This document shows positions 43,081-59,765 of a stretch of 64,000 nucleotides of DNA, one piece after another. The stretch is from Microbacterium sp. UFMG61. GTDB taxonomy: Bacteria > Actinomycetota > Actinomycetes > Actinomycetales > Microbacteriaceae. The position numbers were made by a program, and so were the translations under genes. How positions within the stretch are numbered: the first letter of the stretch is position 1; each line of letters starts with the position of its first letter. The notes beneath the pieces were generated by a model. The model had not been told where the DNA came from, made no database searches, and saw only the letters and a program-made list of their open reading frames with translations. Where the stretch lies: assembly GCF_015354505.1 (NCBI RefSeq), contig NZ_JACAFP010000004.1, positions 103,497 to 167,496 on the forward strand, in the 5' to 3' direction.

Positions 43081-44420
43081 CCGGACTTCCAGTCCTCGTC
43101 TTCCGAGAGCGCGATCGCTTCACCGGCCAGCACGACCGAACCGGCGATCACGACCGCCCGACGGTCTGTCGAGGCAGCCCATTCGCGTGCCGCATCCGCG
43201 GCATCCGCGAGCGTGGGGTGCACGGTCGCGCGGTGGCCGGCTGCCTCGACGAGGTCGGCGATGGCATCCGCATCGCTCGCGCGATCCGAATCCGGCGCGG
43301 TCGCGAACACGTGCGCAGCAGCCGGAGCGAGCTTCGCGACGATGCCTGCGGCATCCTTGTCGGCGAGGATGCCGAGCACGACCCCCCATTCGTCGAAGTC
43401 GAAGCTGTCGTCCATCGCCTGCGCGAGCGCCGCTGCACCGTGCGGATTGTGTGCCGCGTCGACGATTACCGTGGGCGAGATGCCGAGCAGTTGAAGTCTT
43501 CCCGGAGAGGTCGCGCCCTGCAGACCCTCGGAGATGATGTCATCGGCGATCCGCCGCTCCGCCCCGCCGATGAGCGACTCGACGGCCGCGACCGCGAGGG
43601 CCGCATTGTGCCCCTGGTGTGCGCCGTACTGCGGCAGGTACTCCTCGAGGTACTCGCCCGCGAGTCCGCGAATGGAGATGAGCTGGCCGCCCACCGCGAG
43701 CTTCTGATCGGTCAGACCGAACTCGTCGCCCTCGAAGACGATCGTCGCACTCTTCTCCGCGGTGACGCGGCGAAGCACCTCCGCCGCCTCGGCAGGCTGC
43801 TGCGCCGAGACTACGGCCGCACCCTGCTTGATGATCCCCGCTTTGACCGTCGCGATCTCGGTGATCGTGTTCCCCAGGCGGTCCGCGTGATCGATGTCGA
43901 TGGGCGCGAAGACCGCGACGTCGCCGTCAGCCGTGTTCGTCGAGTCCCACTCGCCCCCCATCCCGACCTCGAGCACGAGCACGTCGACGGGCGCGTCGGC
44001 CACCGCGACGAAGGCGAGCACCGTGAGCAGCTCGAAGAACGTGAGCGGCTCCTCTCCCGCGGCCTCGAGCTCGCCGTCGACGATCTCGACGAAGGGCTCG
44101 ATCTCGTCCCAGGCGTCAGCGACCGCGGCGTCCTCGATCGGCTCACCGTCGATCATGATGCGCTCGGTGAAGCGCTCGAGGTGCGGGCTGGTGAAGAGCC
44201 CCGTGCGCAGTCCGTGAGCCCGGAGCAGGCTCTCGATCATGCGCGCCGTCGACGTCTTGCCGTTGGTACCGGTGATGTGCACGACGCGATAGGTGCGCTG
44301 CGGATCGTCGAGGAATGCGAGGAGGCGCGCGGTGCGCTCCTTGCGGGGCTGCACCCAGCGCTCACCGGCGCGGCTCAGGAGGGTCTCATAGACGGCATCC
44401 GCCCTGTCCCGTGCGCTCAT
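43068..44420 (-). CDS. folC: Bifunctional folylpolyglutamate/dihydrofolate synthase
   Basis: A 450-residue Mur-ligase-fold enzyme that adds glutamate to folates. ATP loop HITGTNGKTSTARMIESLL (shortened: GTNGKTST, about 49-56), LFTSPHLERFTERI (about 75), LEVGMGGEWDSTN (about 148), the carbamoyl-lysine region AGIIKQG and VIVDAAHNPHG (about 313) are visible. ATG 44420 shares one base with the ileS stop (TGATG). It works with pabB in the folate route, though not linked to it. Confidence 0.95.
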   Translation of the reverse strand: MSARDRADAVYETLLSRAGERWVQPRKERTARLLAFLDDPQRTYRVVHITGTNGKTSTARMIESLLRAHGLRTGLFTSPHLERFTERIMIDGEPIEDAAVADAWDEIEPFVEIVDGELEAAGEEPLTFFELLTVLAFVAVADAPVDVLVLEVGMGGEWDSTNTADGDVAVFAPIDIDHADRLGNTITEIATVKAGIIKQGAAVVSAQQPAEAAEVLRRVTAEKSATIVFEGDEFGLTDQKLAVGGQLISIRGLAGEYLEEYLPQYGAHQGHNAALAVAAVESLIGGAERRIADDIISEGLQGATSPGRLQLLGISPTVIVDAAHNPHGAAALAQAMDDSFDFDEWGVVLGILADKDAAGIVAKLAPAAAHVFATAPDSDRASDADAIADLVEAAGHRATVHPTLADAADAAREWAASTDRRAVVIAGSVVLAGEAIALSEDEDWKSGWRA

Positions 44421-47400
44421 CAGGCCGCTCCCCCCTTCGTTGCTTCCCGCACCACGGCGGTGGCGTCGATCGTGACGATGACCGGTCCCTTCGCCGATCC
44501 GAGCGCGCGGGCTCCGGAGCGGAACACGCCGTCGCCCGGGCTCGCGACATCGTCGACGACCGCGTCCAGTCCGTCCGTCGGCTGCGCGGCGAAGGCGATC
44601 GCCAGGGTCTCACGAGAGATGAGCTCCGCGTGGGCCGTCAGCGCCGCAGCGTCCTCCGGGGTCGCGTTGAGGGCCAGCACGATGCGATCGCTGACGTCGA
44701 GACCGGCGTTCTTGCGCGCCTCCTGCACGACTCGGATCGCGTCACGGGCGAGTCCTTCAGCCTCGAGTTCGGGCGTCGTCTGCGTGTCGAGCAGCACGAA
44801 TCCACCCGTCGGCACCAGGGCGAGCGCCTCGCCCTCCGGCCGTCCGGTCGTCTCGAACGCGAGCTCGTACTCGGCAGGCTCGAGCGCGATCCCGCCGGCG
44901 GTCACGACCCCGTCGGACTCCGACCAGTCGCCCGCCTTCGCGGCCTTGATCACCGTCTGCACGTTCTTGCCGAGTCGCGGACCGGCAGCGCGGGCGTTGA
45001 CGCTCAGGCGGTGACTGATACCGTACTCCCCTGCCGTCGTCTCCGACTGCTGCACGAGCTCCACGGACTTGACGTTGAGCTCCTCGCGCAGGATGTCCTC
45101 GAACTGGCCCAGCGTCGCCGCCAGCGGCGACACGACCGTGAGACGCGCGAGCGGCAGACGCACGCGCAGCTTCTCCTTCTTACGCAGGGCGTTGCCGACG
45201 CTCGAGAGCTCGCGCACGGCATCCATCGCATCGCGGATCTCGTCCGCCGCGGGGAATGCCGAGGCATCAGGCCAGTCCTGCAGGTGCACGCTGCGTCCAC
45301 CCGTGAGCCCCTGCCACACGCGCTCGCTGATGAGCGGCACGAGCGGAGCAGCGACGCGAGTCAGCGTCTCGAGCACGGTGTAGAGCGTGTCGAACGCGTC
45401 GGTGCTGGATCCTTCCCAGAACCGATCGCGCGAGCGGCGGATGTACCAGTTGGTGAGCACCTCGGCGAAGTCGCGCAGCCGCGCGGAGGCCGTGGTGGAG
45501 TCGAGTCCCTCGAGGTCGGCGCGCACCTCGCGCACGAGGTCGCCGAGACGGGCCAGGATGTAGCGGTCGAGAACGTCGGTCGAGTCCGTGCGCCAGGTCG
45601 CCTCGTATCCGCCGGGCTTCGCCGCGTTCGCATACGTGGCGAAGAAGTACCACGAGTTCCACAGCGGAAGCAGGAATTCGCGCACGCCCGAGCGGATGCC
45701 CTCCTCGGTCACCGCGAGGTTGCCTCCGCGGAGCACGGAGCTCGACATGAGGAACCAGCGCATCGCGTCGGAACCGTCCCGGTCGAGCACCTCGGAGACG
45801 TCCGGGTAGTTGCGCAGCGACTTCGACATCTTGTAGCCGTCGTTGCCGAGGACGATGCCGTGGCAGCTCACACCGGTGAACGCCGGGCGGTCGAACAGTG
45901 CGGTCGACAGCACGTGCATGACGTAGAACCATCCGCGGGTCTGCCCGATGTACTCGACGATGAAGTCGGCGGGCGCGTGCGTGTCGAACCACTCCTGGTT
46001 CTCGAACGGGTAGTGCACCTGCGCGTACGGCATCGACCCTGAGTCGAACCACACGTCGAAGACGTCTTCGATGCGGCGCATGGTGCTCGTGCCGGTCGGG
46101 TCGTCGGGGTTCGGACGGGTGAGGTCGTCGATGTACGGACGGTGCAGGTCGATCTCGCCCTCGGGGTTGCGCGGCAGCGTGCCGAAGTCGCGCTCGAGCT
46201 CCTCGAGCGAACCGTACGCGTCGACGCGCGGGTACTCGGGGTCATCGCTCTTCCAGATCGGGATCGGCGAGCCCCAGTAGCGGTTGCGGCTGATCGACCA
46301 ATCACGTGCGCCCTCGAGCCACTTGCCGAACTGGCCGTGCTTGACGTTGTCGGGCACCCAGGTGATCTGCTCGTTGTTCGCGAGCAGGTCGTCCTTGATG
46401 TCGGTGACGCGGATGAACCAGCTCGACACGGCCTTGTAGATCAGGGGGTTCCGGCACCGCCAGCAGTGCGGGTACGAGTGCACGTAGCTCTGCTCGCGCA
46501 GCAGGCGGCCCTCGGAGCGCAGCACGCGGATGAGAGGCGTGTTGGCGTCCATCCAGAGCTGGCCGGCGACGTCGGTGACGTTCGGGAGGAACTTTCCACC
46601 GTCGTCGAGAGACAGGATCGTCGGGATGCCGGCGGCCCCTGCCACTCGCTGGTCGTCCTCACCATACGCCGGAGCCTGGTGGACGATGCCGGTGCCGTCG
46701 CTGACGGTGACGTAGTCGTCGACGAGGATCCGCCAGGCGTTCTCGGTGCCGTAGGTCTCGGTGTCGGCGTAGTAGTCGAAGAGCCGGTCGTACGTGACGT
46801 CCTGCAGGTCGGCACCGCGCACGGTGGCGTCGACCGCGGCGAGCGCGTCATCGACGCTCTCGTAGCCGAGGTCCTTGACATAGCCGCCGAGCAGTTCGCG
46901 GGCGAGGAGGTAGCGGTGCGCCGACGCCTCGATCGCGGCATCGGTGGTCCCTGCCGCCGCGTGCACATCGGCGGCTCCGTTCGGGCCGGCAGGGAGGACG
47001 ACGTACTCGATGTCGGGTCCGACGGCGAGCGCGAGGTTGGTCGGCAGGGTCCAGGGCGTGGTCGTCCAGGCGAGCGCGCGCACAGCGGTGAGCCCGAGGG
47101 CTTCGGCCTTGGCACCGGTCAGCGGGAACGTGACGGTGACCGACGGGTCCTGACGGTTCTGATAGACGTCGTCGTCCATGCGCAGCTCGTGCGCCGACAG
47201 CGGCGTCTCGTCACGCCAGCAGTAGGGCAGCACGCGGTAGCCCTCGTAGGCGAGACCCTTGTCGTACAGGGTCTTGAACGCCCAGAGCACGCTCTCCATG
47301 TACCCGAGGTCGAGGGTCTTGTAGCCGCGCTCGAAGTCGACCCAGCGAGCCTGACGCGTGACGTAGTCCTGCCACTCGTGCGTGTACTTGAGAACCGAGT

Positions 47401-47818
47401 CCTTCGCCTTCGCGTTGAAGACGTCGATGCCCATGGACTCGATCTGGCTCTTCTCGGTGATGCCGAGCTGCTTCATCGCCTCGAGCTCGGCGGGCAGACC
47501 GTGCGTGTCCCACCCGAACACCCGGTCGACCTTCTTGCCGATCATGGTCTGGAAGCGCGGGAAGACATCCTTCGCGTAACCGGTCAGCAGGTGCCCGTAG
47601 TGCGGCAGGCCGTTGGCGAACGGCGGTCCGTCGTAGAACACCCACTCGTCGTTGCCCTCACGCTGCTCGATCGAGGCGCGGAAGGTCTGGTCGGTCTCCC
47701 AGAAGTCGAGCACGTCGCGCTCGATCTCGGGGAACCGAGGGCTCGGGGCGACGCTCTGGGATGCTGAGCTCGTCGAAGCGTCGGCGGCGGGGCCGAAGGA
47801 GGAACGCGGGTAGGTCAT
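44420..47818 (-). CDS. ileS: Isoleucyl-tRNA synthetase
   Basis: A 1132-residue class I synthetase charging tRNA-Ile. HIGH motif in [16 protein letters not shown] (about 65), W-rich catalytic blocks, CP1 editing domain ([17 protein letters not shown], about 270), KMSKS loop [11 protein letters not shown] (about 660) and a C-terminal domain with an Ala/Val-rich DUF5915-type end (the long form of actinobacteria, archaea and eukaryotes, usually mupirocin-tolerant). ATG 47818 follows a T-box leader. Heads the ileS-folC-DUF4233-ndk unit. Confidence 0.97.
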
Positions 47819-48041
47819 GTCGTCTCGCAGGAGTCGTGGCGGATGCTGCTGCGAGGACGATCCGTCCGGCTTGTCGTTCCGGGGACCGCGGTACCACCTC
47901 GCGTGCCGCGCCTCACGGCGGGACCACTCTCACTGCGGCTGTGACGGGCCTGCCCCGCTCGGTTCTACTTACCCCCGCCTGCACTGAGCCTGCCGAAGTG
48001 TTCTTCCGAGAGCTCCCCGGTGATATCGGATCACAGCTCGT
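47819..48041 (-). promoter_or_regulatory. ileS T-box leader (ultrashort stem I type)
   Basis: The core GGTGGTACCGCGG lies at 47898-47886 on the minus strand, the T-box bulge that pairs with the uncharged tRNA acceptor end. Near the 5' end GAGCT (48039-48035) and AGCTC (48014-48010) enclose a GTGAT/ATCAC hairpin, a very short stem I; an ATC isoleucine specifier is available at 48024-48022. AAGTAGAACCGAGCGGG follows at about 47970-47954. Actinobacterial ileS T-boxes of this kind control translation rather than termination, and I see no T run before the start codon. High free tRNA-Ile should raise expression. Confidence 0.85.
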
Positions 48042-48047
48042 ACGTCC

Positions 48048-48053
48048 ATTGTA
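48048..48053 (-). promoter_or_regulatory. -10 box TACAAT of the ileS T-box transcript
   Basis: TACAAT preceded by GCG; transcription would start near 48041, right before stem I. TTGACG sits only 2 nt upstream of it, so it is not its -35. Confidence 0.5.
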
Positions 48054-48098
48054 CGCGTCAACCGGAAACACCGTAGGCGGTTCGCCCGCGCCGCACCC

Positions 48099-48980
48099 TC
48101 ACTCCACGAGGAAGTGCACGGCTGCGGCCGCCATCGCGACCTGATCGTGATCGACGCCGTCGACCTCGTGCATCTCCCACCGGAGAGCCACGTCCTCGCG
48201 AGCCGACGCGCGCAGCGCCCGATCGAAGAACTCCCTGCCGCGTTCGAGACGTGTGTCCCCCTGTGCCCGCGCCTCATCGTCCCGCCGCAGGTTCTTGGTC
48301 CCGACGTCATCGGTTCCGAGCAGGATGACCAGGTGCCGACCGAAGGCCGCGGAGGCATCGAACTGAGGGGCGTCGCCGCCGAGACCGAAGGGGAATCGTG
48401 CCGACTCGTCCGGCATGGTGTACCACCCCGCGTTGGCGGCCACGGCGACATTCACGGGAGCGTGCGGCACGAACTCCACGTATCGATGCACGAACTGCGC
48501 ACCCGCAGAGTGCCCGAAGATCGAGAATCCTGCCTGCTCGCCACCGATCCTCGCGCGTACGCTCTCGAAGAGCGGCTCGATGTATCCGTACGCCCCGTCG
48601 AGCACGCGCGAGTCGTCGTCGTTGTCGCCATCGGTGTCGGCGAGACCGCCGAGGTTGTACCCCTCGGCATCGGGGAAGTCGTCATCGCTGAACCGCGGCG
48701 CCACCACCACCACATCGCGGTCCCGCACGAGTTCGGTCCAGGTGTTCCGGTACTCGGCGGCATTGCGCTCGACCCCGTGCATCACGACGATGATCGTCGC
48801 CTCCTCGGTCGCACGGGCTCCCGTGACGTAATACACCGGGATCGACTCCCGCCCCTCGATGCGGAGCTCGAACTTGCCGCTGCCGAGCAGCCCGGAAGCC
48901 GGCGGCGACGGAGAACAGGCGGCGAGCGCGCCGGACAGCACGAGTGCCATGATGATCAGGATCCCCCACCGTCGGCGCAT
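48099..48980 (-). CDS. Exported alpha/beta-hydrolase lipoprotein
   Basis: A 293-residue lipoprotein: MRRRW start, hydrophobic run, lipobox LSGALAAC with Cys22. The mature part is an alpha/beta hydrolase of the poly(3-hydroxybutyrate)-depolymerase/PET-hydrolase-like type: IIVVMHGVERNAAEYRNTW (oxyanion HG, about 64-82), nucleophile in FSIFGHSAGAQFVHRY (Ser about residue 157), acid in ILLGTDDVG and histidine in VDGVDHDQV. An aspartate-rich insert DTDGDNDDDSR (about 115) may bind calcium. ATG 48980 shares one base with the CapA stop (TGATG); last gene of the four-gene unit. Substrate unknown; a polymer, ester or lipid outside the cell is possible. Confidence 0.88.
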   Translation of the reverse strand: MRRRWGILIIMALVLSGALAACSPSPPASGLLGSGKFELRIEGRESIPVYYVTGARATEEATIIVVMHGVERNAAEYRNTWTELVRDRDVVVVAPRFSDDDFPDAEGYNLGGLADTDGDNDDDSRVLDGAYGYIEPLFESVRARIGGEQAGFSIFGHSAGAQFVHRYVEFVPHAPVNVAVAANAGWYTMPDESARFPFGLGGDAPQFDASAAFGRHLVILLGTDDVGTKNLRRDDEARAQGDTRLERGREFFDRALRASAREDVALRWEMHEVDGVDHDQVAMAAAAVHFLVE

Positions 48981-50134
48981 CAGAAGCGCAGCACCGCGTG
49001 ATCCGCGCGCCAGGTCACGGAATCGCCGATGATGGCTTTCGCCGTCGCAAGCTCGCCTTCCGGCAGCGGGCGAGCGACGTAGTCGACGATCTTGTTGTCC
49101 GTCTCGATCACGCGGAGAGTGATCGAGCCGACCCCGCTCTGGTTCCAGCGCAGGCCGACGATCGCCCCGAGACCCGGTTTGCCGTAGCTCGCGAAGCGCC
49201 CCGGAGCTCCGAACACGAAGTTGCCGATCCCGTAGACCACCGGAACACCGCCGACCATCTCGACCGCCTGCAGGGTATGCGATCCACTGCCTATCACGGC
49301 GTCATAGCCGGCGTCGGCGAAGACCCCTGCCCAGTAGCGCTGCTGCGCGTTGACGTCTTCGTAGTTGTTCCCCCAGTGCACGAAGGCCACCACCTTGTCG
49401 GCGCCGTTGTCCCGCGCCGCGCGCAGCACCTGCTCGACGCGATCCAGACGGAGAGGAACCATACCGGGCGTCGTCTCGGTGCTGCGATGGAGCGCGCCGA
49501 AGTCCTCGCCGAACGACACCACGGCCACATTGAGCTGCTCAGAACGCACGAGCAGCGGCATCGACGCCTCGGCTCTGGTCGCACCGGCTCCGAACGCGGC
49601 GAGTCCGCCCTCGCCCGCATGGCGGATCGTGTCGTCGAGTCCCGCTCCGCCTCGGTCCATCGCGTGGTTGTTGCCGAGGTTCACAGCGTCCACTCCGATC
49701 TCGCGCAGTGCGGAGAGATGGGCGGGATCGCTGGCGTAGGTGTACTTCGCTCCCGGGTTGGCCGGCGTCTGGATCGTCGTGAACGGAACCTCCGCGTTGA
49801 CGATCGTGTAGTCGAAGCCGTCCAACAGCGGTGCGACCCCCGCCAGCAGCGGTGCCGCGCCGGATGCCGCGAGCTTCTCTTCGGAGCCGTCGCCGAACAT
49901 CGTGTCCCCGGCGAACCCGAGATCGAGGACACCGTCGTCGAGCGCCGGCGCCTCTGCCGCGACGACCGGCGGGGGTTCCGGAGTGGCGAACGCCAGCTGG
50001 CTGCCGAGCAGCCCCGCAGAGCCGACCGCGAGCACGAGGCTCCCCCCGATCAGACGGCGGTCTCGCCGGAGGTTGCGTCCTGCACGGCGCCTTCGCGTCC
50101 TGCGACGGGTCGTCATCATGCGCTCGCCGTCCAT
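48980..50134 (-). CDS. CapA-like metallophosphoesterase-fold protein (poly-gamma-glutamate synthesis family)
   Basis: A 384-residue exported protein: very basic N-terminus ([18 protein letters not shown]) then one hydrophobic segment LIGGSLVLAVGSAGLLGS (about 29-46), anchor or signal. The CapA/PGA_cap (PF09587) domain shows LDLGFAGDTMFGDG (about 72), TIVNAEVPFT (about 115), VNLGNNHAMDRGG (about 150), FVHWGNNYED (about 245) and DAVIGSGSHTLQ (about 275), including the Asp/Asn/His metal ligands. CapA family members act in poly-gamma-glutamate capsules or as phosphodiesterases. No pgsB/pgsC genes are near, so a capsule role is unproven. The start at 50134 has GAGGAG at ideal spacing and overlaps the ABC gene by 19 nt. 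Confidence 0.9.
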   Translation of the reverse strand: MDGERMMTTRRRTRRRRAGRNLRRDRRLIGGSLVLAVGSAGLLGSQLAFATPEPPPVVAAEAPALDDGVLDLGFAGDTMFGDGSEEKLAASGAAPLLAGVAPLLDGFDYTIVNAEVPFTTIQTPANPGAKYTYASDPAHLSALREIGVDAVNLGNNHAMDRGGAGLDDTIRHAGEGGLAAFGAGATRAEASMPLLVRSEQLNVAVVSFGEDFGALHRSTETTPGMVPLRLDRVEQVLRAARDNGADKVVAFVHWGNNYEDVNAQQRYWAGVFADAGYDAVIGSGSHTLQAVEMVGGVPVVYGIGNFVFGAPGRFASYGKPGLGAIVGLRWNQSGVGSITLRVIETDNKIVDYVARPLPEGELATAKAIIGDSVTWRADHAVLRF

Positions 50135-51891
50135 CTCTTGCTCCTCGCGTTTCGGTTGCGCCAGAGGTGATCTCGATACTCCTCGCCGGTGAGCGTCGTC
50201 GCCGTGCCGTCCTCCTCCATCACCCAGATGGTGTCGGCCAGCGAGAGCGCATCGGGGTCTTGCGTGACCATCAGCACGGTTCCCCGGTGACGCAGGATGG
50301 CTTCGCGCGCGAGAGACCGCGCCTCGGCGCCCATTCCGGCCAGTGGTTCGTCCAGAAGCAGGATGCGGGGCGTCCCCATCATGGCCCGGGCGAGCGCTAC
50401 CAGCTGGCGATCGCCGGCGGGGAGATTCGCTCCGCCCTCCATGACCCAGCCCATGACCCCCTGGTCATCGTGGCGCCTGAGCGCGTCGTCGAGCCCGAGC
50501 GTCTTCACGATCCTCTGAACCTCACCAGGGGCGACCCCGCGATCGGCATACGTCAGATTGCGCAGCACGGTTCCGCGCAGCAGAGGAAGATCCGGCCCCG
50601 CGACGCCCATCATCGACCCGATCGACGACGGTGCCGTGTCCGACAGTGGCTGTCCGTCGATCACGACGCCACCCGAGGTCGGCTCCACCATTCGGGTGAG
50701 CACGTCGAGCACGGCCGACTTGCCTGCGCCGGACGGACCGGTGATGGCGATGAACTCCCCACGGTCGGCCACGGCAGCGAACCCGGCCAGGGCGCCGGGA
50801 ACCGTGACGTCGACGAACTCGATGCGCCCGCCCCTGACCACCAACGGCGGCTTCGACTCCTCCTCGATACCACGACTGGAGCTGGTCAGGAAGTCCACGA
50901 CCTTCTGCCGTGAGATCAATCCCCGATGCCAGTAGTCGTGAGCGAGACCCAGTGTGCGCACGGGACGTGCGAGATAGCGGGCGAGCAGGACTCCGACGAC
51001 GACGCCGCCCACGGTCGTCGCCCCGCGCTGGACCTGAATGACACCGATGGCGAGGACGGCCACCACGCTCATCAGCGACGTGGCCGCAGATATGCCCCGC
51101 AGGCGGCCTCTCAGTCCGGCGACCCGGGAGAGCGAGACCGTGAGCGCGTCGTTCTGGCGGGACAGTCGACGGAACTCGCCGCGCACACGACCTGATACCT
51201 GACTGACACGGATGGCATTGATCTGCTCGTCGACCGTGCTCATGAGCGACGACCTGCGCCGCCGCATCGATCGAGTCGCATCGCGCATCGACCGTCCGAG
51301 ACTGAGCGACAGAGCCGCGCCCGACGCGAGCACGCTGACGACCGCGAGCGCGAGCCACAGGTCCAGCACGACGAGCACACCGAGTGCAGCGATGAGCACG
51401 ATGGCGGCCGAGAGCCCCTCGAGGAGTCCGCGGCTCATCCACATGCGCAGCATCGACAGATCTCCGGTGAGACGCAGCAGGAGTCCCCCGCGAGCTCGAT
51501 GCCGCAGATGCTCGGGTCGCATGCGCTGGAGGTGCGCATACATCTCCATCCGCAACCTCCGCACGACGTCGTAACCTGCGCGCTCCGCCCAGGTGAACTC
51601 CCAGGACCGAGCCAGGCCCAACAGGATGGCGGCCCCGGCGAGCGCCGCGCAGAACCAGAGCGACTGCTGATACGTCGCCTCGGCGGCGTCGCCGACGCCC
51701 GCGGGAACGAGCTGATCGACCACGAGCCGGGTGATCAGGATGAAGTCGACCAGCAGAGCAGCCTGCAGGAAGCCCAGCAGACCGACCACGAGGAAGTCTC
51801 GGCGGCGCAGTCGGAACAGGGGTCGGAGACGCCGCGGGGCCGATCCACCCGCGGCATCCATCTCATCGATGTCATCGATCTCCATCGTCAT
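50116..51891 (-). CDS. ABC exporter (fused permease-ATPase) with degenerate ATP-site motifs
   Basis: A 591-residue half-transporter of the type I exporter (MsbA-like) group. Six membrane helices fill about 25-320; the ATPase follows with Walker A GPSGAGKS (Lys391) and Walker B ILLLDEPLAGMG. Several catalytic motifs differ: the signature is LPAGDRQLVAL instead of LSGGQ, and the H-loop position reads VTQDPDA with Gln for His. Such sites are usually poor ATPases, so it might work as a heterodimer or as a slow transporter. No peptidase C39 domain. ATG 51891 overlaps the NTPase stop (ATGA). Substrate likely made or handled by the neighbours; unknown. Confidence 0.9.
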   Translation of the reverse strand: MTMEIDDIDEMDAAGGSAPRRLRPLFRLRRRDFLVVGLLGFLQAALLVDFILITRLVVDQLVPAGVGDAAEATYQQSLWFCAALAGAAILLGLARSWEFTWAERAGYDVVRRLRMEMYAHLQRMRPEHLRHRARGGLLLRLTGDLSMLRMWMSRGLLEGLSAAIVLIAALGVLVVLDLWLALAVVSVLASGAALSLSLGRSMRDATRSMRRRRSSLMSTVDEQINAIRVSQVSGRVRGEFRRLSRQNDALTVSLSRVAGLRGRLRGISAATSLMSVVAVLAIGVIQVQRGATTVGGVVVGVLLARYLARPVRTLGLAHDYWHRGLISRQKVVDFLTSSSRGIEEESKPPLVVRGGRIEFVDVTVPGALAGFAAVADRGEFIAITGPSGAGKSAVLDVLTRMVEPTSGGVVIDGQPLSDTAPSSIGSMMGVAGPDLPLLRGTVLRNLTYADRGVAPGEVQRIVKTLGLDDALRRHDDQGVMGWVMEGGANLPAGDRQLVALARAMMGTPRILLLDEPLAGMGAEARSLAREAILRHRGTVLMVTQDPDALSLADTIWVMEEDGTATTLTGEEYRDHLWRNRNARSKRWTASA

Positions 51892-53123
51892 GAGAGCACC
51901 ATCGACGATGCGCGAACATGCTCGATAAGTTCGCGCGAATCGACGAACCCGCCCCGACGACCTCCCAGTTCGGTGGCCTGGGCGCTCCGCGTCATCTCCG
52001 ACACGTTCGCGAGGCCGTCGAGGTCGATCGGCCATGCGGGCTGCGGCAGCGGCATCGGCGGGCTCATCAGGGCGGGATCGATGCCCAGCACCGGTGCGAC
52101 GAGATCGGGATTCTCGAGCTCCGGAATCCCCCAGATCGGGAGGCCGAGTTCCTCAGCGGCCTCCTGCATGGCGAGCGGCGATTTCGTCAGAGTGCCCGAC
52201 AACGCGACGACGTCGAAGCCGTGCTCCGTCAGCGATCGAAGGCCCTGCGCCGCTCCCATCGCATCGGATGCCGCCAGCACGACGCCGTCTATGAGTTCGT
52301 GCACGACCGCCGATTCCAGCAGGCTCTTGTTGTCGCGTTGGAAGACCCCGTCGGCGATCTCGACGAAGTTCACCCGACTTCCGCCGAGGGAGAGGTTGGC
52401 CACCAGCTGCGTCATCACCTCTTCGAGCACGGACGTGGGCTGTCGGAAGGATGACGCGAGTCCTGCGTCCGTGAAGTCGAGCATCATGTGCGCTCCGGCG
52501 TCGAGCATGACCCAGTAATCGTTGCCCGATCCGGTGCCCGTCACCTTCGTGACCCCCGGTCGCATCCCGACCTTCGACAGCCCGTGCGCCATGTAGTGGA
52601 TCGTCGTCGTCTTGCCCGCATTCATCGAGGTGCCCAGCACGCCGATCGTGCGCGGTCTCTCGGCGGGTGGCGTCAACGTCGGCAATCGGAAGTCGGCGAC
52701 GTTGAGCGGTCGACCTGCCTCATCGCCGATGAGCCCGATCGGCACGATGTCCGTGGCCGCCCGCACCGATCTGCTCCGAGAGATCGCCGCAGACGCGATA
52801 CCTCCGCTCGCGACGAGGTTGACCGGCCCCAGGTGCCTGGGCACGTAGGACTCGAACTGATCCGTCGCGTAGCGGTCCGCGTAGGCGACGATGATCAGAT
52901 CGCCGACGTGCAGCAGGCTGCGACGACCGTGCGGCTGCTCGACGTGGCGATGGTGGCCGAGCCTCTCGATGCGGGCGACGACCACATCGCCCGAACGCGG
53001 ACGGATCGCACCCCCGACGAGCGTCCGCATCGACTCGAGCGGAACGCGTCGAGTCGCGAACGACTGCTTCGCGGTGATGCGCATCTCGTGCGGCAGAATC
53101 CGCACCCAGGTCTCGCGCCTCAT
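51888..53123 (-). CDS. P-loop NTPase, DUF1611-like
   Basis: A 411-residue cytoplasmic protein. Residues 1-140 form a beta-rich N-terminal domain (GDVVVARIERLGHHRHVE, GDLIIVAYADRYATDQFE); from about 158 a Rossmann/P-loop domain begins with Walker A VLGTSMNAGKTTT (Lys171), then GVTKVTGTGSGNDYW, NFVEIADGVFQRDN and VVLAASDAMGAA. The shape is that of dethiobiotin-synthetase-like NTPases and DUF1611; one DUF1611 family, DgcN, is a D-glutamate N-acetyltransferase in Pseudoalteromonas, but I cannot tell whether this protein does that. ATG 53123 has ribosome site AGGGGAG and lies in an ATGA overlap with an upstream frame. First clear gene of the 48.1-53.1 kb unit. Confidence 0.85.
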   Translation of the reverse strand: MRRETWVRILPHEMRITAKQSFATRRVPLESMRTLVGGAIRPRSGDVVVARIERLGHHRHVEQPHGRRSLLHVGDLIIVAYADRYATDQFESYVPRHLGPVNLVASGGIASAAISRSRSVRAATDIVPIGLIGDEAGRPLNVADFRLPTLTPPAERPRTIGVLGTSMNAGKTTTIHYMAHGLSKVGMRPGVTKVTGTGSGNDYWVMLDAGAHMMLDFTDAGLASSFRQPTSVLEEVMTQLVANLSLGGSRVNFVEIADGVFQRDNKSLLESAVVHELIDGVVLAASDAMGAAQGLRSLTEHGFDVVALSGTLTKSPLAMQEAAEELGLPIWGIPELENPDLVAPVLGIDPALMSPPMPLPQPAWPIDLDGLANVSEMTRSAQATELGGRRGGFVDSRELIEHVRASSMVLS

Positions 53124-53133
53124 GGTCTCCCCT

Positions 53134-53208
53134 TCAGAATTTCGAGGAGATGGGCCGTTCGCCACCGGGCGCGATCGATGCACCCGTCCTGCTGTCGTGT
53201 CGAGTCAT
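53134..53208 (-). CDS. Possible 24-residue peptide ORF before the NTPase operon
   Basis: ATG 53208 opens a 24-codon frame (MTRHDSRTGASIAPGGERP, then ISSKF) that ends 10 nt before the NTPase start, with the NTPase ribosome site directly after its stop. It could be a leader peptide or the precursor of a modified peptide. Its own ribosome site is poor (GGAG touching the ATG). The rest of 53209-53384 holds no supported gene. Confidence 0.25.
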   Translation of the reverse strand: MTRHDSRTGASIAPGGERPISSKF

Positions 53209-53384
53209 CTCCGTACCCACAGGCGATACTCACGAACGACGTCGAGGTGACATGCCCCAGCCGCCACTTCCCCAAATCCCCAGATTGGTCAGCAACGTTA
53301 CTCCCCACTCGGGCCCCCGATTCGACGAAAGCGCCGAAACCGGAGCGCGCATTCCGGCATTCCGTTCCTGTGCCCGGAAAACGG

Positions 53385-53390
53385 TAGCCT
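53385..53390 (+). promoter_or_regulatory. -10 box TAGCCT of the beta-helix protein gene
   Basis: TAGCCT, spacer CCGAGC, ATG at 53397; leaderless geometry. Confidence 0.5.
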
Positions 53391-53396
53391 CCGAGC

Positions 53397-54047
53397 ATGG
53401 CCCGCACCACGCGATCCCCCGCCGCGCCCCGCGTCTCCCCTCCCGATCTGCCACCGCAGCTGGACCCGGCCTCGCCCGCCCGCGGGGCGGATCTGCTCGC
53501 CGCACGACTCGATCTCACGGGCACGGTCGATCTCGCCTACGCCTCGCTCGAGCAGTGCACGATCTCCGCAGACGCGGAGTCCGTCGACCTCCAGGGCGCG
53601 ACGATCATCGATGCCGAGATCGTCGGAGCGCGCATCGCATCGCTGCGCCTTCGGGATGCGAGCATCCGCCGCCTGCGGGTCGTCGGAGGGCGCATCGGCA
53701 CGCTGGACCTGAGCGGCGCGCGCATCGACGAGCTCGAGATCGATGACGTGCGCATCGACTACCTGAACCTGGGCGGCGCGCGCGGAGTCGACCTCGAGAT
53801 CTCGAACTGCGGCATCCGCACCCTCGACATGCCGCAGGCCGAACTCACGCGCGTGCGCTTCTCCGAGAGCATCTCGGACGAGGTGGATCCCCGTGGACTG
53901 CGCGCGAAGGACGTCGATCTCCGCGGCCTCGACGCGAGATCGTTCCTCGACGCCAACAGTCTGCGCGGCACGACCCTCAGCAGCTTCCAGGTGCAGCAGC
54001 TCGCTCCACTCTTCGCGGCAGGCCTCGGCATCCAGGTCAGGGACTGA
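53397..54047 (+). CDS. Pentapeptide-like right-handed beta-helix protein
   Basis: A 216-residue soluble protein. After a Pro-rich start (about 1-30) comes a long run of short repeats in which a hydrophobic residue returns every five positions (DLQGATIIDAEIVGARI, LRLRDASIRRLRVVGGRI, LDLSGARIDELEIDDVRI), typical of a four-sided beta-helix like pentapeptide-repeat proteins. Such helices can mimic DNA (Qnr, MfpA) but many have no known role, and this one has fewer strict A(D/N)LXX units. ATG 53397 with a 6-nt-spaced -10 box. Its end overlaps the convergent ATPase gene by 11 nt. Confidence 0.85.
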   Translation: MARTTRSPAAPRVSPPDLPPQLDPASPARGADLLAARLDLTGTVDLAYASLEQCTISADAESVDLQGATIIDAEIVGARIASLRLRDASIRRLRVVGGRIGTLDLSGARIDELEIDDVRIDYLNLGGARGVDLEISNCGIRTLDMPQAELTRVRFSESISDEVDPRGLRAKDVDLRGLDARSFLDANSLRGTTLSSFQVQQLAPLFAAGLGIQVRD

Positions 54048-55545
54048 CGGGACGGTTCGCCTCCAGCAGCTCCCGAGTGAACGGATGCTGCGGGGCCGCG
54101 AACACGTCCGCGACCGCCCCCTGCTCGACGATCACGCCGTCCTGCATCACGAGCACCTCGTCTGCGATCGCACCCACCACATCGAGATCGTGCGACACGA
54201 ACACCATCGTGAGGTGTCGCTCGCGTTGCAGGCGGAGCAGCAGCTGCAGCACGCGTTCGCGCACCGAGGGGTCCAGCGCCGAGACGGGCTCGTCGAGTAC
54301 CAGGACCTCGGGCTCGGCCGCCAGAGCTCGTGCGATCGCCGCACGCTGACGCTGCCCACCCGAGAGCGCGAGAGGCCGCCGGGCGGCCAGCGCCGAGTCG
54401 AGGTCGACCTCGGCGAGGAGTTCCGCGACCCGCGCGGCTCGCCGGTCGCGGGGAACGCCCCCTGCGGCGAGTGCCTCTCGCAGCGATCGTCCGATCGTCC
54501 ACCTCGGGTCGAACGCGCCGAGGGGATTCTGGTGCACGAGCTGCACCCGGTGCCCCCCGATCCAGCGCAGGTCACCGGCGTCCGGCGGTTCGACCCCGAC
54601 GATCATCCGAGCGACAGTGGTCTTACCGGATCCCGACTCCCCCACGATGCCGAGCGTGCGCCCCCGCGGGAGGGCGAACGATGCGTCCTGCACGGCCACG
54701 AGCTCGCCGAATCGCTTGGTCGCCCCCGTTGCGACGAGCACAGGTTCGGCGGAGTCCTCGGTTCCCTCGCGCGGCTCGTGCATGGTCGCGGCGATCAGCT
54801 GACGGGTGTACGCGTGCGCCGGCGCTTCGAGCACCTCGGCGACAGAGCCGGACTCGATCACCGCACCATGGCGCATCACGAGCACGCGATCGGCGATTCG
54901 GCGCACGGCGGCGAAATCGTGGCTGATGAAGACGACCGCGGTCCCCGCATCCGCGATGTCTCGCAGCAGGGTCAGGATGCGCGCCTGCACGGTCGCGTCG
55001 AGCGCCGTGGTCGGCTCATCCGCGACGAGGATGGCCGGATCGGCGGCGATGGCCGAGGCGATCAGCGCCCGCTGCCGGAGCCCGCCGGAGAGCTGATGCG
55101 GGTACTGCCGCGCTCTGCGCTCCGGGTCCGGCATCCAGACACGGCGGAGAAGACCCTGCACGCGCGCACGCACAGCCCCTCGACCCGATGCGAGTCCGTG
55201 GATCCGCAGCGGCTCGGCGATCTCCGATCCCACCCGCTGCAGGGGATCGAGAGAGACGAGAGCATCCTGAGACACCAGTGCGATGCCGGTGCCCCGCACC
55301 GAGCGCCACCGCCGCTCACCGAATCCTTCCACGTCCGTTCCGTCGACGATCAAGCGGTCGAACCGCACCCGTGCCGTCTCGGGGGTCAGGCCCAGCAGCG
55401 CCCGCGCGGTGAGCGATTTCCCCGCCCCGGACTCGCCGACGATCGCGACGCACTCGCCAGGAGACACCGTCATCGAGACTCCGTCGACGACGGGGGCTCC
55501 CCCGAAGTCGATTCGCAGACCGCTCAGCTCCAGCGCCGCGCTCAT
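54037..55545 (-). CDS. Fused double ATPase of a second peptide-type ABC importer
   Basis: A 502-residue DppD-DppF-like fusion. Domain 1: Walker A GESGAGKS (about 36-43), LSGGLRQRA, LVADEPTTALD; domain 2: Walker A GESGSGKT (about 305), HQNPLGAFDP, LSGGQRQRA, VLDEPVSALDP. Unlike the fusion at 1324-3267, it has no cysteine-bearing oligopeptide extension after domain 1; the first domain runs into the second at THEPREGTEDSAEP-like linker (about 265-280). This makes it 145 residues shorter. ATG 55545 overlaps the preceding permease stop (ATGA). Drives the permeases at 55542-57292. Confidence 0.93.
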   Translation of the reverse strand: MSAALELSGLRIDFGGAPVVDGVSMTVSPGECVAIVGESGAGKSLTARALLGLTPETARVRFDRLIVDGTDVEGFGERRWRSVRGTGIALVSQDALVSLDPLQRVGSEIAEPLRIHGLASGRGAVRARVQGLLRRVWMPDPERRARQYPHQLSGGLRQRALIASAIAADPAILVADEPTTALDATVQARILTLLRDIADAGTAVVFISHDFAAVRRIADRVLVMRHGAVIESGSVAEVLEAPAHAYTRQLIAATMHEPREGTEDSAEPVLVATGATKRFGELVAVQDASFALPRGRTLGIVGESGSGKTTVARMIVGVEPPDAGDLRWIGGHRVQLVHQNPLGAFDPRWTIGRSLREALAAGGVPRDRRAARVAELLAEVDLDSALAARRPLALSGGQRQRAAIARALAAEPEVLVLDEPVSALDPSVRERVLQLLLRLQRERHLTMVFVSHDLDVVGAIADEVLVMQDGVIVEQGAVADVFAAPQHPFTRELLEANRPVSP

Positions 55546-56354
55546 GACCGCCGCCCCTCTGCTCTGGCTCGCAGGATACGTCCGACGATCGTGGCGGAGA
55601 TGACCGTGAGGGTGATCGCCAAACCGGGGAACACGGCGATCCACCAGGCCTGACCGAGCACGTTCCGCCCACCCGAGAGCATCAGCCCCCACTCGGGAGT
55701 CGGCTCCGACGGGCCGAGCCCGAGGAAGCTGAGGCCGGCGGCGGCGAGGATGCTGGAGCCGATCCCGATCGTCGCGATCACGCTCAGAGAGCCGATCACC
55801 CCTGGCACCACGTGCCGGACGAATGCCTGTGCCGGACGGACTCCGAGGATGTGCGCGGCTTCGACGTGCTCGGCGCGACGCAGCGTGCGCGTCTGCACCC
55901 GCGCGAGACGGATGTAGACGGGCACAGCCGCAAGAGTCACGGCGATCGCGATGTTCACCGGGCCCGGCCCGAGAACCGCCACCACGACGAGTGCGACGAG
56001 GAACTCCGGAAACGCCATCAGCACGTCGTTCACGCGCATGATCGCCGCGTCGACGCCGCGCGGTGCCAGACCCGCCAGCGCGCCGACGACGAGCCCGGCG
56101 ACGAGCGCGACCCCCGTGGCCAGCAGACCGATGCCGATCGAGCGTCCCGCCCCGTGGACCACCCGTGAGTACACGTCGCGACCACTCTGATCGGTACCGA
56201 ACAGGTGATCGGCACTCGGCGGCAGCAGCGCGGCCCGCACATCGGTCTGGAGGGGGTCATGCGTGGCCAGCAGGCCGGGGAAGACGGCGGCGACAGCGAA
56301 CACCAGCAGCACTGCGGCCGCACACCAGAGCAACACGACCTGAGCGCGCCTCAT
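55542..56354 (-). CDS. ABC transporter permease (DppC-like), second importer
   Basis: A 270-residue permease with N-terminal helix LLWCAAAVLLVFAVAAVFPG, the HLFGTDQSGRDVYSRVVHGA block (about 50-70) and EAAHILGVRPAQAFVRHVVPGV as EAA loop (about 165), then GLSFLGLGPSEPTPEWG, typical DppC. ATG 56354 overlaps the DppB-like stop by 4 nt; its own stop overlaps the ATPase ATG. Partner of the gene at 56351. Confidence 0.94.
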   Translation of the reverse strand: MRRAQVVLLWCAAAVLLVFAVAAVFPGLLATHDPLQTDVRAALLPPSADHLFGTDQSGRDVYSRVVHGAGRSIGIGLLATGVALVAGLVVGALAGLAPRGVDAAIMRVNDVLMAFPEFLVALVVVAVLGPGPVNIAIAVTLAAVPVYIRLARVQTRTLRRAEHVEAAHILGVRPAQAFVRHVVPGVIGSLSVIATIGIGSSILAAAGLSFLGLGPSEPTPEWGLMLSGGRNVLGQAWWIAVFPGLAITLTVISATIVGRILRARAEGRRS

Positions 56355-57292
56355 CGGACGCCCTCGCCGTCGCGTCGCAGACGGGGATCGATGATGGGAT
56401 GCAGCAGCTCGACGACGAGGTTGACGATGACGAACACGATCGCGCTGAGCAGGATGATGCCCGTGATCACGGGCAGGTCGCGATTGGTGATGGCGGCGAG
56501 CGTGACCCGGCCGAGCCCGGCCCGCGCGAAGACCGTCTCGACGAGCACCGCTCCCCCGAGCACCGATCCGGTGAGGTAGGCGGCGAGCGTGATCGCGTTC
56601 GCCCCGCCGTGCCTCAGGCCGTGTCGGAGCGTGAACCACGACGGACCTGCTCCGCGCGCACGCACGGTCTCGGCGAACGGCATCCGCTCGGCCTGCACGA
56701 GTCCGTCGCGCAGCACCTGGCTCAGGAGCGCCGCGACGGGCAGGGCGAGAGTGATCGCCGGAAGGACGATCGTCGCGGGGTTGCGGGCCCCGGAGACGGG
56801 GAACCACCCGAGTCCGAAGGCGAAGACGCTGAGCAGGATCAGCCCGATCCAGAACACCGGAGACGACAGGATGACGAGCTCGACGCCCGCAGCGACCGCA
56901 CGCCCGGCCTGACCGCGGACGAGCAGCGCGACGGCCACTGCCAGCAGCACGGCGATCACGAGGGCGAGGGCGGAGAGCTGCAGCGTCGAACCGAGTTGAC
57001 GGCCGATGACCTCGGTCACCGGCATCCGCAGCTGGTAGGACTCGCCCAGGTCCCCACGAGCGAGCTGCCCGATGAAGGCGATGTACTGTTCGAGCGGCGG
57101 GCGATCGAGTCCCAGCTCGGCGCGGATGCCGTCCTTGACGGCATCTGAGACCTGAGCCTGGGGGCCGAGCATCACCGATACCGGATCGCCGGGTATCACG
57201 CGGAACGCGAGGAACACCAGCGTCGCCGCTCCCCACAGCACGACCACGACCGACGCCACGAGACCGGCGATGCGGAGGAGCGCTGCCTTCAC
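56351..57292 (-). CDS. ABC transporter permease (DppB-like), second importer
   Basis: A 313-residue permease. Start VLWGAATLVFLAFRVIPGDP (about 18-37) and GDLGESYQLRMPVTEVI (about 85-101) are the DppB N-terminal marks; EAA loop about 205-235 (FAETVRARGAGPSWFTLRHGL); end HPIIDPRLR. GTG 57292 is the longest start and begins at the first helix. It comes 100 nt after the binding-protein gene; that gap holds no hairpin that I could support. Confidence 0.93.
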   Translation of the reverse strand: MKAALLRIAGLVASVVVVLWGAATLVFLAFRVIPGDPVSVMLGPQAQVSDAVKDGIRAELGLDRPPLEQYIAFIGQLARGDLGESYQLRMPVTEVIGRQLGSTLQLSALALVIAVLLAVAVALLVRGQAGRAVAAGVELVILSSPVFWIGLILLSVFAFGLGWFPVSGARNPATIVLPAITLALPVAALLSQVLRDGLVQAERMPFAETVRARGAGPSWFTLRHGLRHGGANAITLAAYLTGSVLGGAVLVETVFARAGLGRVTLAAITNRDLPVITGIILLSAIVFVIVNLVVELLHPIIDPRLRRDGEGVR

Positions 57293-57392
57293 CGTTCTCG
57301 CCCTCTCGAAGACTCCTGGGCGCCCCTCGGCTCGCGGCGCTCGCTCAGGAACGATATCGCGCGGCAGCGAAGGGCGCTCGACGGCGCAGGCG

Positions 57393-59003: not shown

Positions 59004-59054
59004 GGGGATCCTCGAGAGGGAAGGAGGGGGACGACGCAGAAGCGCGTCGATTTC

Positions 59055-59074
59055 TTGGACTCGATCCAATTCTA
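59055..59074 (-). promoter_or_regulatory. Putative promoter -10 and operator of the second importer
   Basis: TAGAAT (59074-59069, minus strand) is a good -10 box, and right behind it TTGGA-5 nt-TCCAA (59069-59055) is a perfect inverted repeat over the expected transcription start. This looks like a repressor site. No regulator gene is adjacent. Confidence 0.45.
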
Positions 59075-59123
59075 CGTCCTGGTCGCGCGTACAGGCGCGA
59101 TACGACATATCGCAGGGCCCTCC

Positions 59124-59129
59124 TATACT
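59124..59129 (+). promoter_or_regulatory. -10 box TATACT of the small lipoprotein gene
   Basis: TATACT about 30 nt before the GGAGGGG ribosome site of the next gene; close to consensus. Confidence 0.5.
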
Positions 59130-59157
59130 GCGAAGACACCGGCGGAGGGGGAACAGT

Positions 59158-59697: not shown

Positions 59698-59700
59698 ACT
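59695..59700 (+). promoter_or_regulatory. Candidate valS -10 box TAGACT
   Basis: TAGACT whose first three bases are the stop codon of the lipoprotein gene; about 65 nt before the valS ATG. Same hexamer and same stop-codon overlap as at proB/proA. Confidence 0.4.
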
Positions 59701-59765
59701 GAGGGGCACAACCCACACTCAGGCACGCTCACACAGTGCCGCATACATCGCTCGAGGAGACCTCC

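Follow-up and report, generated by a model that had tools for sequence, protein, structure and literature searches.

Related systems

Several known systems contain counterparts of the genes described here. PahZ1 of Pedobacter cleaves beta-aspartyl amide bonds in an endo fashion and is a biodegradation enzyme studied on man-made, thermally synthesised poly(aspartate) (PMC4456602). The CphA2 type of cyanophycin synthetase is without the Mur P-loop (PMC9427784). The PgsBCA/CapBCA systems include a CapA-like extracellular protein, MslH is a lasso-peptide epimerase of the CapA-like metallo-enzyme type, and BioD and the DUF1611 proteins, including DgcN, have a P-loop fold. The Lys of BioD has a substrate-side role. 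We know of no natural substrate of PahZ1.

The locus compared here is a four-gene unit in a 64,000-nucleotide stretch of DNA from Microbacterium sp. UFMG61 (the window), encoding a P-loop NTPase, an ABC transporter, a CapA-like protein and a hydrolase lipoprotein. It has in common with PgsBCA/CapBCA the CapA-like extracellular protein and the idea of a polymer that is made and exported, but a search of its genome for PgsC/CapC (PF14102) gave no match, with a positive control in Bacillus subtilis, and what the unit encodes instead is an ABC exporter together with a hydrolase of the PahZ1 type. In comparison with CphA1 and CphA2, the unit of the window has no CphA-like gene, and no protein of the window's genome exceeded the CphA cut-off (best 91 bits vs. 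850), whereas some variants of the operon in other genomes carry a CphA-like protein that lacks the Mur P-loop, as CphA2 does. A description of the operon was not found in the literature covered, mostly listings of open-access papers on DUF1611, DgcN (PMC12363236), CapA with lasso peptides, PahZ1, cyanophycin synthetase and the biosynthesis of polyaspartate; no paper linking LpqC to polyaspartic acid turned up.

Organization of the four-gene unit

The four open reading frames are all on the minus strand (Table 1). Calculated from the coordinates, the NTPase and ABC genes overlap by 4 nt (ATGA), the ABC and CapA-like genes by 19 nt and the CapA-like and hydrolase genes by 1 nt (TGATG), which confirms the co-oriented, overlapping arrangement described in the first-pass annotation. 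The 19-nt overlap is uncertain, since a later pair of ATG codons offers an alternative start for the CapA-like protein. A scan of positions 47700-53500 gave no promoter-like site and one terminator-like site, the latter at chance level.

Table 1. Features of the four-gene unit (positions within the window)
Feature	Positions	Strand	Basis
P-loop NTPase, 411 aa, gene 1 of the unit	51888..53123	-	ORF and Pfam search
NTPase, N-terminal beta-rich domain, residues 1-152	52668..53123	-	predicted structure
NTPase, C-terminal SIMIBI-type P-loop domain, residues 153-356	52056..52667	-	VIA structure matches
NTPase, Walker A, residues 164-172 (GTSMNAGKT)	52608..52634	-	alignment
ABC, exporter-type half-transporter (TMD+NBD)	50116..51891	-	PF00664, PF00005
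CapA/PGA_cap metallophosphatase-like protein, putative membrane anchor or signal at the N-terminus (by eye)	48980..50134	-	PF09587
Alpha/beta-hydrolase lipoprotein, PahZ1/LpqC family	48099..48980	-	PDB profile matches
Hydrolase, codon of nucleophile Ser158 (GHSAG)	48507..48509	-	position from sequence
Hydrolase, codon of lipobox Cys22	48915..48917	-	sequence, by eye

The extracellular candidates: hydrolase and CapA-like protein

The catalytic domain of the hydrolase is homologous to the PahZ1/LpqC family: the PDB matches were PahZ1 6ve6 (E 8.9e-46, residues 33-287), LpqC 3d0k (3.4e-40) and PahZ1 9o7u (3.1e-35). The signatures GHSAGxQFVHR, GWYTMP and QGxxRxxRG are found both in 6ve6 and in the hydrolase of the window, and the Ser-Asp-His triad is intact across the 45 best-scoring hydrolases of the operons (Ser 45/45, Asp 44/45, His 45/45). 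The NCBIfam matches were PHB depolymerases, below the cut-off, and other amides, or esters, may be substrates of PahZ1-like enzymes. A lipobox, LAAC, was seen by eye at Cys22, in agreement with the earlier description as a hydrolase lipoprotein. PahZ1 is known as a degrader of synthetic poly(aspartate), whereas its relative in the window is a predicted lipoprotein whose gene is coupled to those of an NTPase and an ABC exporter.

The name CapA-like was likewise borne out, as the protein exceeded the PF09587 (CapA/PGA_cap) cut-off by a wide margin (188.9 bits vs. 27, E 1.5e-55). The motifs GD, N.E, NNH, HWG and H are kept in 12/12 sequences. The protein is distantly related (E 6.5e-8) to structures labelled as poly-gamma-glutamate synthesis protein, 8gq9 and others, which we take to be MslH. 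We note that it is a distant homologue; its score with the lasso-peptide epimerase model NF038314 is 45.8 bits, far under the family cut-off of 700.

The NTPase

Relatives of the NTPase are encoded in at least 500 of 592 candidate stretches. The AlphaFold2 model of the protein (mean pLDDT 88.4, pTM 0.84) has two domains, and residues 1-154 predicted alone reached a pLDDT of 96. The N-terminal domain had no usable match in the PDB (Foldseek best E 0.77; VIA best Z 2.6); in 40 sequences it has invariant residues, R67, D75, Y85, D88, Q89 and E91 among others; the lack of a match for this predicted domain is no proof of a new fold. The C-terminal domain resembles BioD 3fgn (VIA Z 16.4, 184 aligned residues, 2.9 A), the DUF1611 protein 2g0t (Z 16.1, 177 aligned, 3.2 A) and CTP synthetase 1s1m (Z 15.9, 192 aligned, 3.7 A), and also DUF1611 2obn (Z 14.7); BioD heads the list, with a Z tied with the others.

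The Walker A residues K171 and T172 are each conserved in 41/42 sequences, and K193, T195, G196, T197, D202, E255 and D258 in 42/42. Besides the Walker A motif, the NTPase carries the substrate-side Lys and the TGT of BioD, aligned with 3fgn and 6nka at weak E-values (0.007 and 0.02, respectively). The name DUF1611-like proposed in the first-pass annotation holds in terms of the fold, as the P-loop domain matches 2g0t, 2obn and DgcN 7xrj, the last at a moderate Foldseek E of 1.1e-4. In terms of the sequence the support for it is weak: the PF07755 score is 15.9 bits, below the Pfam gathering cut-off of 25, and a search of the whole genome with this family gave no match. No DUF1611-type N-terminal domain was among the matches listed for the NTPase, and 2g0t aligns from model residue 65. 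The NTPase has in common with BioD and DUF1611 proteins the C-terminal P-loop fold, the Walker A motif and a BioD-like Lys and TGT; it is set apart by an N-terminal domain that lacks a usable PDB match and by a score below the DUF1611 cut-off.

The ABC transporter

The transporter matched PF00664 (ABC_membrane, 4.6e-26) and PF00005 (ABC_tran, 5.4e-21) and is a half-transporter of the exporter type (type IV), i.e. its TMD and NBD are fused and the Walker A and B motifs are present in the sequence. Its signature is LPAGDRQ and the H-loop His is replaced by Gln, so the exporter that had been called odd is mildly so. Among 80 aligned ABC proteins encoded next to the NTPase, the H-loop position is His in 46, Gln in 8 and a gap in 11, and other residues make up the rest. 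In three loci tested (L132, L128 and L089), the ABC proteins were closest to PrtD of type I secretion (443, 422 and 414 bits, respectively; cut-off 510) and a gene of the HlyD cluster comes next, a pairing that favours export.

Distribution and mobility

The 94 loci (the window included) were picked for their resemblance to the NTPase and are therefore no random sample. Counts are from profile searches of six-frame open reading frames, used because the gene caller was crude and picked some antisense frames; loci on contigs that end early stayed in the denominators. In 80/94 loci, including proteobacteria and cyanobacteria, the NTPase gene is followed at a distance of no more than 1.3 kb by a same-strand ABC homologue, and either the ABC or the hydrolase gene is linked to the NTPase gene in 86/94. 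The hydrolase is near the NTPase in only 50/94, with some contigs ending early, the CapA-like gene is present in 11/94, and all four genes occur together in 9/94, again counting the window. The neighbourhood search suggested at the outset thus shows genes that stay together in other genomes.

In three congeners, picked from genomes with strong matches to the neighbouring peptide importer, the block is absent from the site and the flanking genes are retained. This absence, together with the recurrence in other genomes, argues that the linkage of the four genes is not due to chance. Strong matches to the hydrolase in the sampled Actinobacteria number five, all beside parts of this operon: the window's own genome, G006 and G089 among 199 family genomes, and its own, G274 and G588 among 396 phylum genomes. 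The G588 contig begins within the ABC gene, and its NTPase is out of view. The family search also gave weak matches in G085, G121 and G185.

The distribution of the unit is patchy (3/149 and 6/199). Six plasmid copies were found; the three examined all have the hydrolase immediately before the NTPase and ABC genes, and one of them has a hydroxylase gene ahead of the hydrolase. A viral origin was rejected as no relative is encoded in viral contigs, and a tRNA-based integration site as no tRNA lies within 44000-60000. The unit is best read as an accessory operon that has moved horizontally and is scattered across several phyla.

Variant partners

Variants of the operon have extra genes, for an aspartyl beta-hydroxylase, for a porin, or for HlyD together with a cyanophycin-synthetase-like protein. 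Genes of the aspartyl beta-hydroxylase family are near the NTPase in 7/94 loci, two of these links being weak (the L096 gene is on the other strand and the L076 frame is partial), and a Porin_O_P-type gene follows in 16/94. CphA-like genes are found in 5/94 loci only. In L108, L128 and L132 they come after the NTPase, ABC and HlyD genes, and in L128 and L132 the hydrolase follows, which in L132 makes a five-gene operon of the Geminicoccaceae type; the L108 copy is a fragment. In L098 and L120 they lie within 9 kb. The Mur P-loop is absent from 6/6 CphA-like proteins checked, those of the variant operons score 229-474 bits, where the cut-offs are 850 and 877, and for the copy inside the L132 operon there was no match to the Pfam ATP-grasp families. 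Some loci have genes for sigma factors, two-component systems and S8 peptidases in the vicinity, and four have an HTTM gene with a short YPMF protein.

Proposed function and alternatives

Given the observed gene linkage, families and intact catalytic residues, we propose, with a probability of roughly 0.4, that the operon makes, exports and trims an aspartate-type oligomer or polymer of amino acids, acidic and possibly beta-linked; we infer both the identity of this product and the reaction of the NTPase. In the cytoplasm, the NTPase, with its BioD/DUF1611 fold, would use ATP to activate or join a carboxylate, and the ABC half-transporter, as a homodimer, would carry the product across the membrane. 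Outside, the anchored PahZ1-like lipoprotein would cut or transfer beta-aspartyl-type amide bonds, and the CapA-like metallo-enzyme would modify the product by an MslH-like epimerase or a phosphatase-like step. The predicted placement of the parts inside or outside the cell is read from sequence features.

The make-export-process layout seen by the first-pass annotation is supported by the genes being kept together elsewhere and by the PrtD-like ABC proteins with HlyD. Its idea of an amino-acid polymer is strengthened by the partners, although in another form: the PahZ1-family hydrolase, the aspartyl beta-hydroxylase near the NTPase and the CphA-like gene together point to aspartate rather than glutamate. 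The route through glutamate, DgcN and CapA is weak because the DUF1611 cut-off is not reached, the fold match to DgcN is moderate and the genome lacks PgsC. The remark that no polymer synthase is present holds for the unit of the window, unless the NTPase is a ligase, which it may be.

It is rather unlikely that the operon serves scavenging, i.e. that the hydrolase breaks beta-aspartyl or poly-amide material outside, the peptides enter and the NTPase acts on the acidic amino acids taken up, like DgcN on D-Glu. PahZ1 is known for biodegradation (PMC4456602), and the porins noted above would suit uptake. In eight loci of distant NTPases (L045-L052, outside the 94), an M20 peptidase gene lies directly upstream in 8/8, the one tested being carboxypeptidase-G2-like, so breakdown also fits, with a hint of glutamate; in L041, an M55 D-aminopeptidase is upstream. 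A peptide importer also adjoins the unit in the window, but it was rejected as a member: orthologues of its binding protein (>800 bits) occur in 20/39 genomes of the genus, and it stays at the site in the three unit-less genomes. In L037, the importer is directly upstream of the NTPase, and there may thus be some functional link. The exporter type of the transporter, PrtD-like with HlyD in three loci, and the CphA-like gene within the operons of L128 and L132 speak against scavenging.

Peptide tailoring and efflux, where the NTPase would modify, the ABC transporter export and the hydrolase and CapA-like protein process outside a secreted signal, a toxin or a siderophore-like peptide, or would serve in the detoxification of an amino-acid analogue, is unlikely. 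It agrees with the patchy, mobile distribution, with the regulatory, S8 peptidase and HTTM-YPMF neighbours and with the weak NF038314 match of the CapA-like protein. However, the tight overlaps in the window leave no space for an intergenic precursor gene, and the aspartate-linked partners are left without explanation.

We regard it as improbable that the NTPase acts as a GTPase of the MeaB/HypB/MobB kind, in the maturation or regulation of the CapA-like metallo-enzyme or the transporter, and not as a ligase. In structure searches its P-loop fold also resembles HypB, MeaB and SRP GTPases, and its best NCBIfam and PDB profile matches are MobB, all weak; on the other hand, the NTPase is mostly found without the CapA-like gene, the invariant Lys and TGT align with BioD, and BioD is first in the VIA list, within its tied Z. 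That the unit is an unusually composed poly-gamma-glutamate (Pgs/Cap) system is very improbable, since the CapA-like protein and the glutamate hint from the CPG2-like partner are outweighed by the absence of PgsC/CapC, by the CapA-like gene being limited to 11/94 loci and by a hydrolase related to that of poly(aspartate), not poly(glutamate).

Under the preferred reading of an aspartate-type product, the operon may be the natural home of the poly-aspartate-cutting enzyme family. It is doubtful, and would go further, that there is a whole undescribed class of secreted poly- or oligo-amino acids, for which the NTPase, with its unmatched N-terminal domain, would be a new ATP-dependent aspartyl ligase (or a primer or capping enzyme), where PahZ1-type enzymes would have their natural substrate, instead of in synthetic poly(aspartate), and to which CphA2-like enzymes, aspartyl hydroxylases and CapA-like epimerases would be lineage-specific additions that vary the polymer. 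In the operon, PahZ1 relatives are combined with an exporter, an enzyme that uses ATP and sometimes a CphA-like ligase, which suggests an overlooked aspartate-based oligomer secreted in several phyla, and PahZ1-type enzymes could be used as probes for this product.

Distribution of the four-gene unit

Relatives of NTP, the P-loop NTPase of the window, were collected with a profile of 13 sequences, run against one genome for each species, and the best 80 of at least 500 relatives were kept. With the window and 13 actinobacterial loci they make up the 94 loci compared here. The 80 loci were picked by NTP similarity, and the gene counts, taken from profile searches of six-frame ORFs, describe the closest relatives of NTP rather than all bacteria. 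The NTP core is widespread, i.e. the best 80 of at least 500 relatives include actinobacteria, proteobacteria, cyanobacteria and acidobacteria. The half-transporter gene ABC follows NTP on the same strand within 1.3 kb in 80 of the 94 loci, and in 86 either ABC or, within 0.6 kb, the hydrolase lipoprotein gene HYD is found near NTP. HYD lies within 6 kb downstream of NTP in 48 loci and, when both sides are counted up to 6.5 kb, in 50. Other genes are less frequent: a Porin_O_P-type profile gene (one member Pfam-tested) is seen in 16/94 loci, the CapA-like gene CAP in 11/94, and an HTTM gene and a short YPMF-motif protein in 4/94 each.

The first-pass annotation regarded the four genes as one unit, which is borne out by its recurrence in other genomes: NTP stands with ABC, CAP and HYD in 9 of the 94 loci, the window among them. 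The window-like order is seen in L037, L007, L008, L053, L055 and L056, and in L054 and L057 HYD is present on both flanks of CAP. In alphaproteobacterial loci, some of them plasmid-borne (L142, L144, L095, L110), the surroundings of the core repeatedly hold a sigma-factor gene, an adjoining short protein and an S8 peptidase; the short protein is perhaps, at a guess, an anti-sigma factor.

Features of the window and of compared loci
Feature	Position	Strand	Remarks
Four-gene unit NTP-ABC-CAP-HYD	48099-53123	minus	successive overlaps 4, 19 and 1 nt
NTP			P-loop NTPase (family searches and sequence)
ABC			half-transporter (family searches and sequence)
CAP			CapA-like protein, PF09587, E 1.5e-55
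HYD			alpha/beta-hydrolase lipoprotein (family searches and sequence)
ileS-type tRNA synthetase gene	44420-47818		flanks the unit on one side
Pentapeptide-repeat-like gene	53397-54047		other flank; weak Pfam match, below cut-off
Peptide (opp/dpp-type) ABC importer	54037-59390		same flank as the pentapeptide-like gene, beside valS
ORF of ~279 aa	L165:9308-10803		occupies the gap where the unit would sit
Two convergent, adjoining NTP-ABC pairs	L055:10001-16500		Arthrobacter sp. AL12; one pair with CAP and HYD
YPMF short protein (no Pfam match) and HTTM pair	L040:10642-12146, L044:3989-5373, L010:11346-11891, L141:459-1837		actinobacterial operon variant; HTTM is PF05090 in the two tested

Genomic setting and mobility

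NTP is rare in related genomes, being found in 3/149 genus genomes, 6/199 family genomes and 22/396 phylum genomes (E<=0.001; 7 of the 22 stronger than E 1e-40), the own genome being counted each time. The sole other sampled genus genome with the four-gene unit (L037) has proteins 75, 69, 64 and 63% identical to the four of the window, whereas those of Knoellia koreensis are 79, 70, 67 and 66% identical. All four are thus nearer to Knoellia koreensis than to L037, which fits transfer of the whole block. Three genomes of the genus (L165-L167) keep the order valS, importer, pentapeptide gene, ileS and folC with the four genes absent, and an orthologue of the importer binding protein (>800 bits) is present in 20 of 39 genus genomes. 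The stretch from the pentapeptide gene to ileS may serve exchangeable genes as a slot, since another ORF fills the gap in L165. In L037 the importer lies directly upstream of NTP on the same strand, and the pentapeptide-like gene sits elsewhere. Six plasmid records carry related cores; the order HYD - NTP - ABC is seen on all 3 plasmids examined (Paracoccus albus, Paracoccus liaowanqingii, Sulfitobacter), directly preceded in Sulfitobacter by an aspartyl hydroxylase gene. The four genes fit a discrete, movable block.

The hydrolase and the NTPase

HYD is a relative of PahZ1: matches of the window protein among solved structures include poly(aspartic acid) hydrolase-1 (6ve6, E 8.9e-46; 9o7u, E 3.1e-35) and LpqC (3d0k, E 3.4e-40). 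The PahZ1 of Pedobacter is an endo-acting enzyme on beta-Asp amide bonds (PMC4456602). A gammaproteobacterial HYD (L117) matches the same three at 1e-19 to 1e-22, whereas that of Novosphingobium (L124) matched none of them at E 1e-20, so diverse hydrolases occur in the operon. Of the 45 best-scoring HYDs, 44 carry the GxSxGxQFxHR signature and 40 have all three signatures; their triad is conserved (Ser 45/45, Asp 44/45, His 45/45).

HYD and the operon are linked in Actinobacteria. The search of 199 family genomes gave 6 matches, 3 weak and 3 strong (E<1e-50), and each strong one (own, G006, G089) stands with NTP, ABC and CAP. With the own genome excluded, both strong HYD genomes among 198 fall within the 5 NTP genomes, for which we calculate a chance of ~5e-4. 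The search of 396 phylum genomes gave 3 matches: own, G274 (in the operon) and G588, a short contig with the order end of ABC - YPMF - HTTM - HYD, on which any NTP would fall beyond the contig end.

The AlphaFold2 model of NTP is confident (pLDDT 88.4). Residues 153-356 match BioD 3fgn (Z 16.4, 184 aligned, 2.9 A), DUF1611 2g0t (Z 16.1), CTP synthetase 1s1m (Z 15.9) and SRP GTPases (7o9g, Z 15.6), all tied within 1 Z; by sequence NTP falls below the DUF1611 cut-off. The Lys and TGT of BioD align with K193-TGT of NTP, the matches being weak, and this motif is invariant in 42/42 NTP relatives. Because the P-loop domain matches these proteins and the Lys-TGT is kept, we infer that NTP could plausibly use ATP in a ligase-like reaction on a carboxylate. 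The N-terminal 152 residues are modelled as a confident beta-rich domain (pLDDT 96), with no usable match among PDB structures.

Partner genes, product and direction of transport

Several partners point to aspartate. A PF05118 aspartyl/asparaginyl beta-hydroxylase gene is near NTP in 7/94 loci (four Pfam-tested, the rest by profile; on the opposite strand in L096, a partial ORF in L076). L128 and L132 have the order NTP-ABC-HlyD-CphA-like-HYD, with genes that overlap or nearly touch in L132, and L108 follows this order until its contig ends inside the CphA-like gene. In Bdellovibrionales (L098, L120) CphA-like genes lie up to ~9 kb from NTP; several such ATP-grasp proteins surround NTP-HYD there, interspersed with small proteins of unknown family. 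The six longer CphA-like copies score 229-474 bits against two cyanophycin synthetase models (cut-offs 850, 877). Pfam finds ATP-grasp in 5/6, no Pfam family matched the in-operon copy of L132, and the Mur-type P-loop is absent in 6/6. According to PMC9427784, CphA1 elongates the Asp backbone with its ATP-grasp domain and adds Arg with its Mur-like domain; CphA2, described there as without Mur P-loop and lid, resembles the copies of the variant loci in lacking the P-loop. Behind NTP, L102 has a gene for an ArgZ-like arginine dihydrolase, and L130 has a mate from its cluster.

Against an aspartate-type oligomer being made and exported stand the finding of CphA-like genes in only 5/94 loci, the absence of a CphA over cut-off from the window's genome, the 44/94 loci in which HYD was not found within 6.5 kb of NTP on either side, and the NCBIfam matches of HYD, sub-threshold hits to models of PHB depolymerase. 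Peptidase genes at some loci would also fit a role in breaking down acidic amino acids or peptides, and glutamate. An M20 peptidase gene lies directly upstream of NTP, on the same strand, in 8/8 loci of a distant NTP branch (L045-L052); that of L049 is nearest to carboxypeptidase G2 among solved structures and the other seven are 57-71% identical to it, and L041 has an M55 D-aminopeptidase gene. This M20-paired branch may be a separate two-gene system. The transporters favour export: family searches assign the window ABC to the exporter type, and in L132, L128 and L089 the nearest relative of ABC is the type I secretion protein PrtD (443, 422 and 414 bits, short of the 510 cut-off), with the next gene belonging to one HlyD cluster (member L108 Pfam-tested). 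The make-export-process layout proposed at first is a sensible one. The ABC of L098 is MsbA-like, and Gram-negative loci carry outer-membrane proteins of unrelated families, Porin_O_P, OprB and Porin_4 (single tested members).

The first-pass annotation had suggested a glutamate- or amino-acid-based polymer, citing DgcN, which PMC12363236 places in a D-Glu racemisation pathway, and CapA. We retain an amino-acid product and infer that its chemistry likely shifts from glutamate towards aspartate, given the PahZ1-like HYD, the hydroxylase and the CphA-like partners. In our view the operon is a variant of the systems that make, export and process an amino-acid polymer or peptide.
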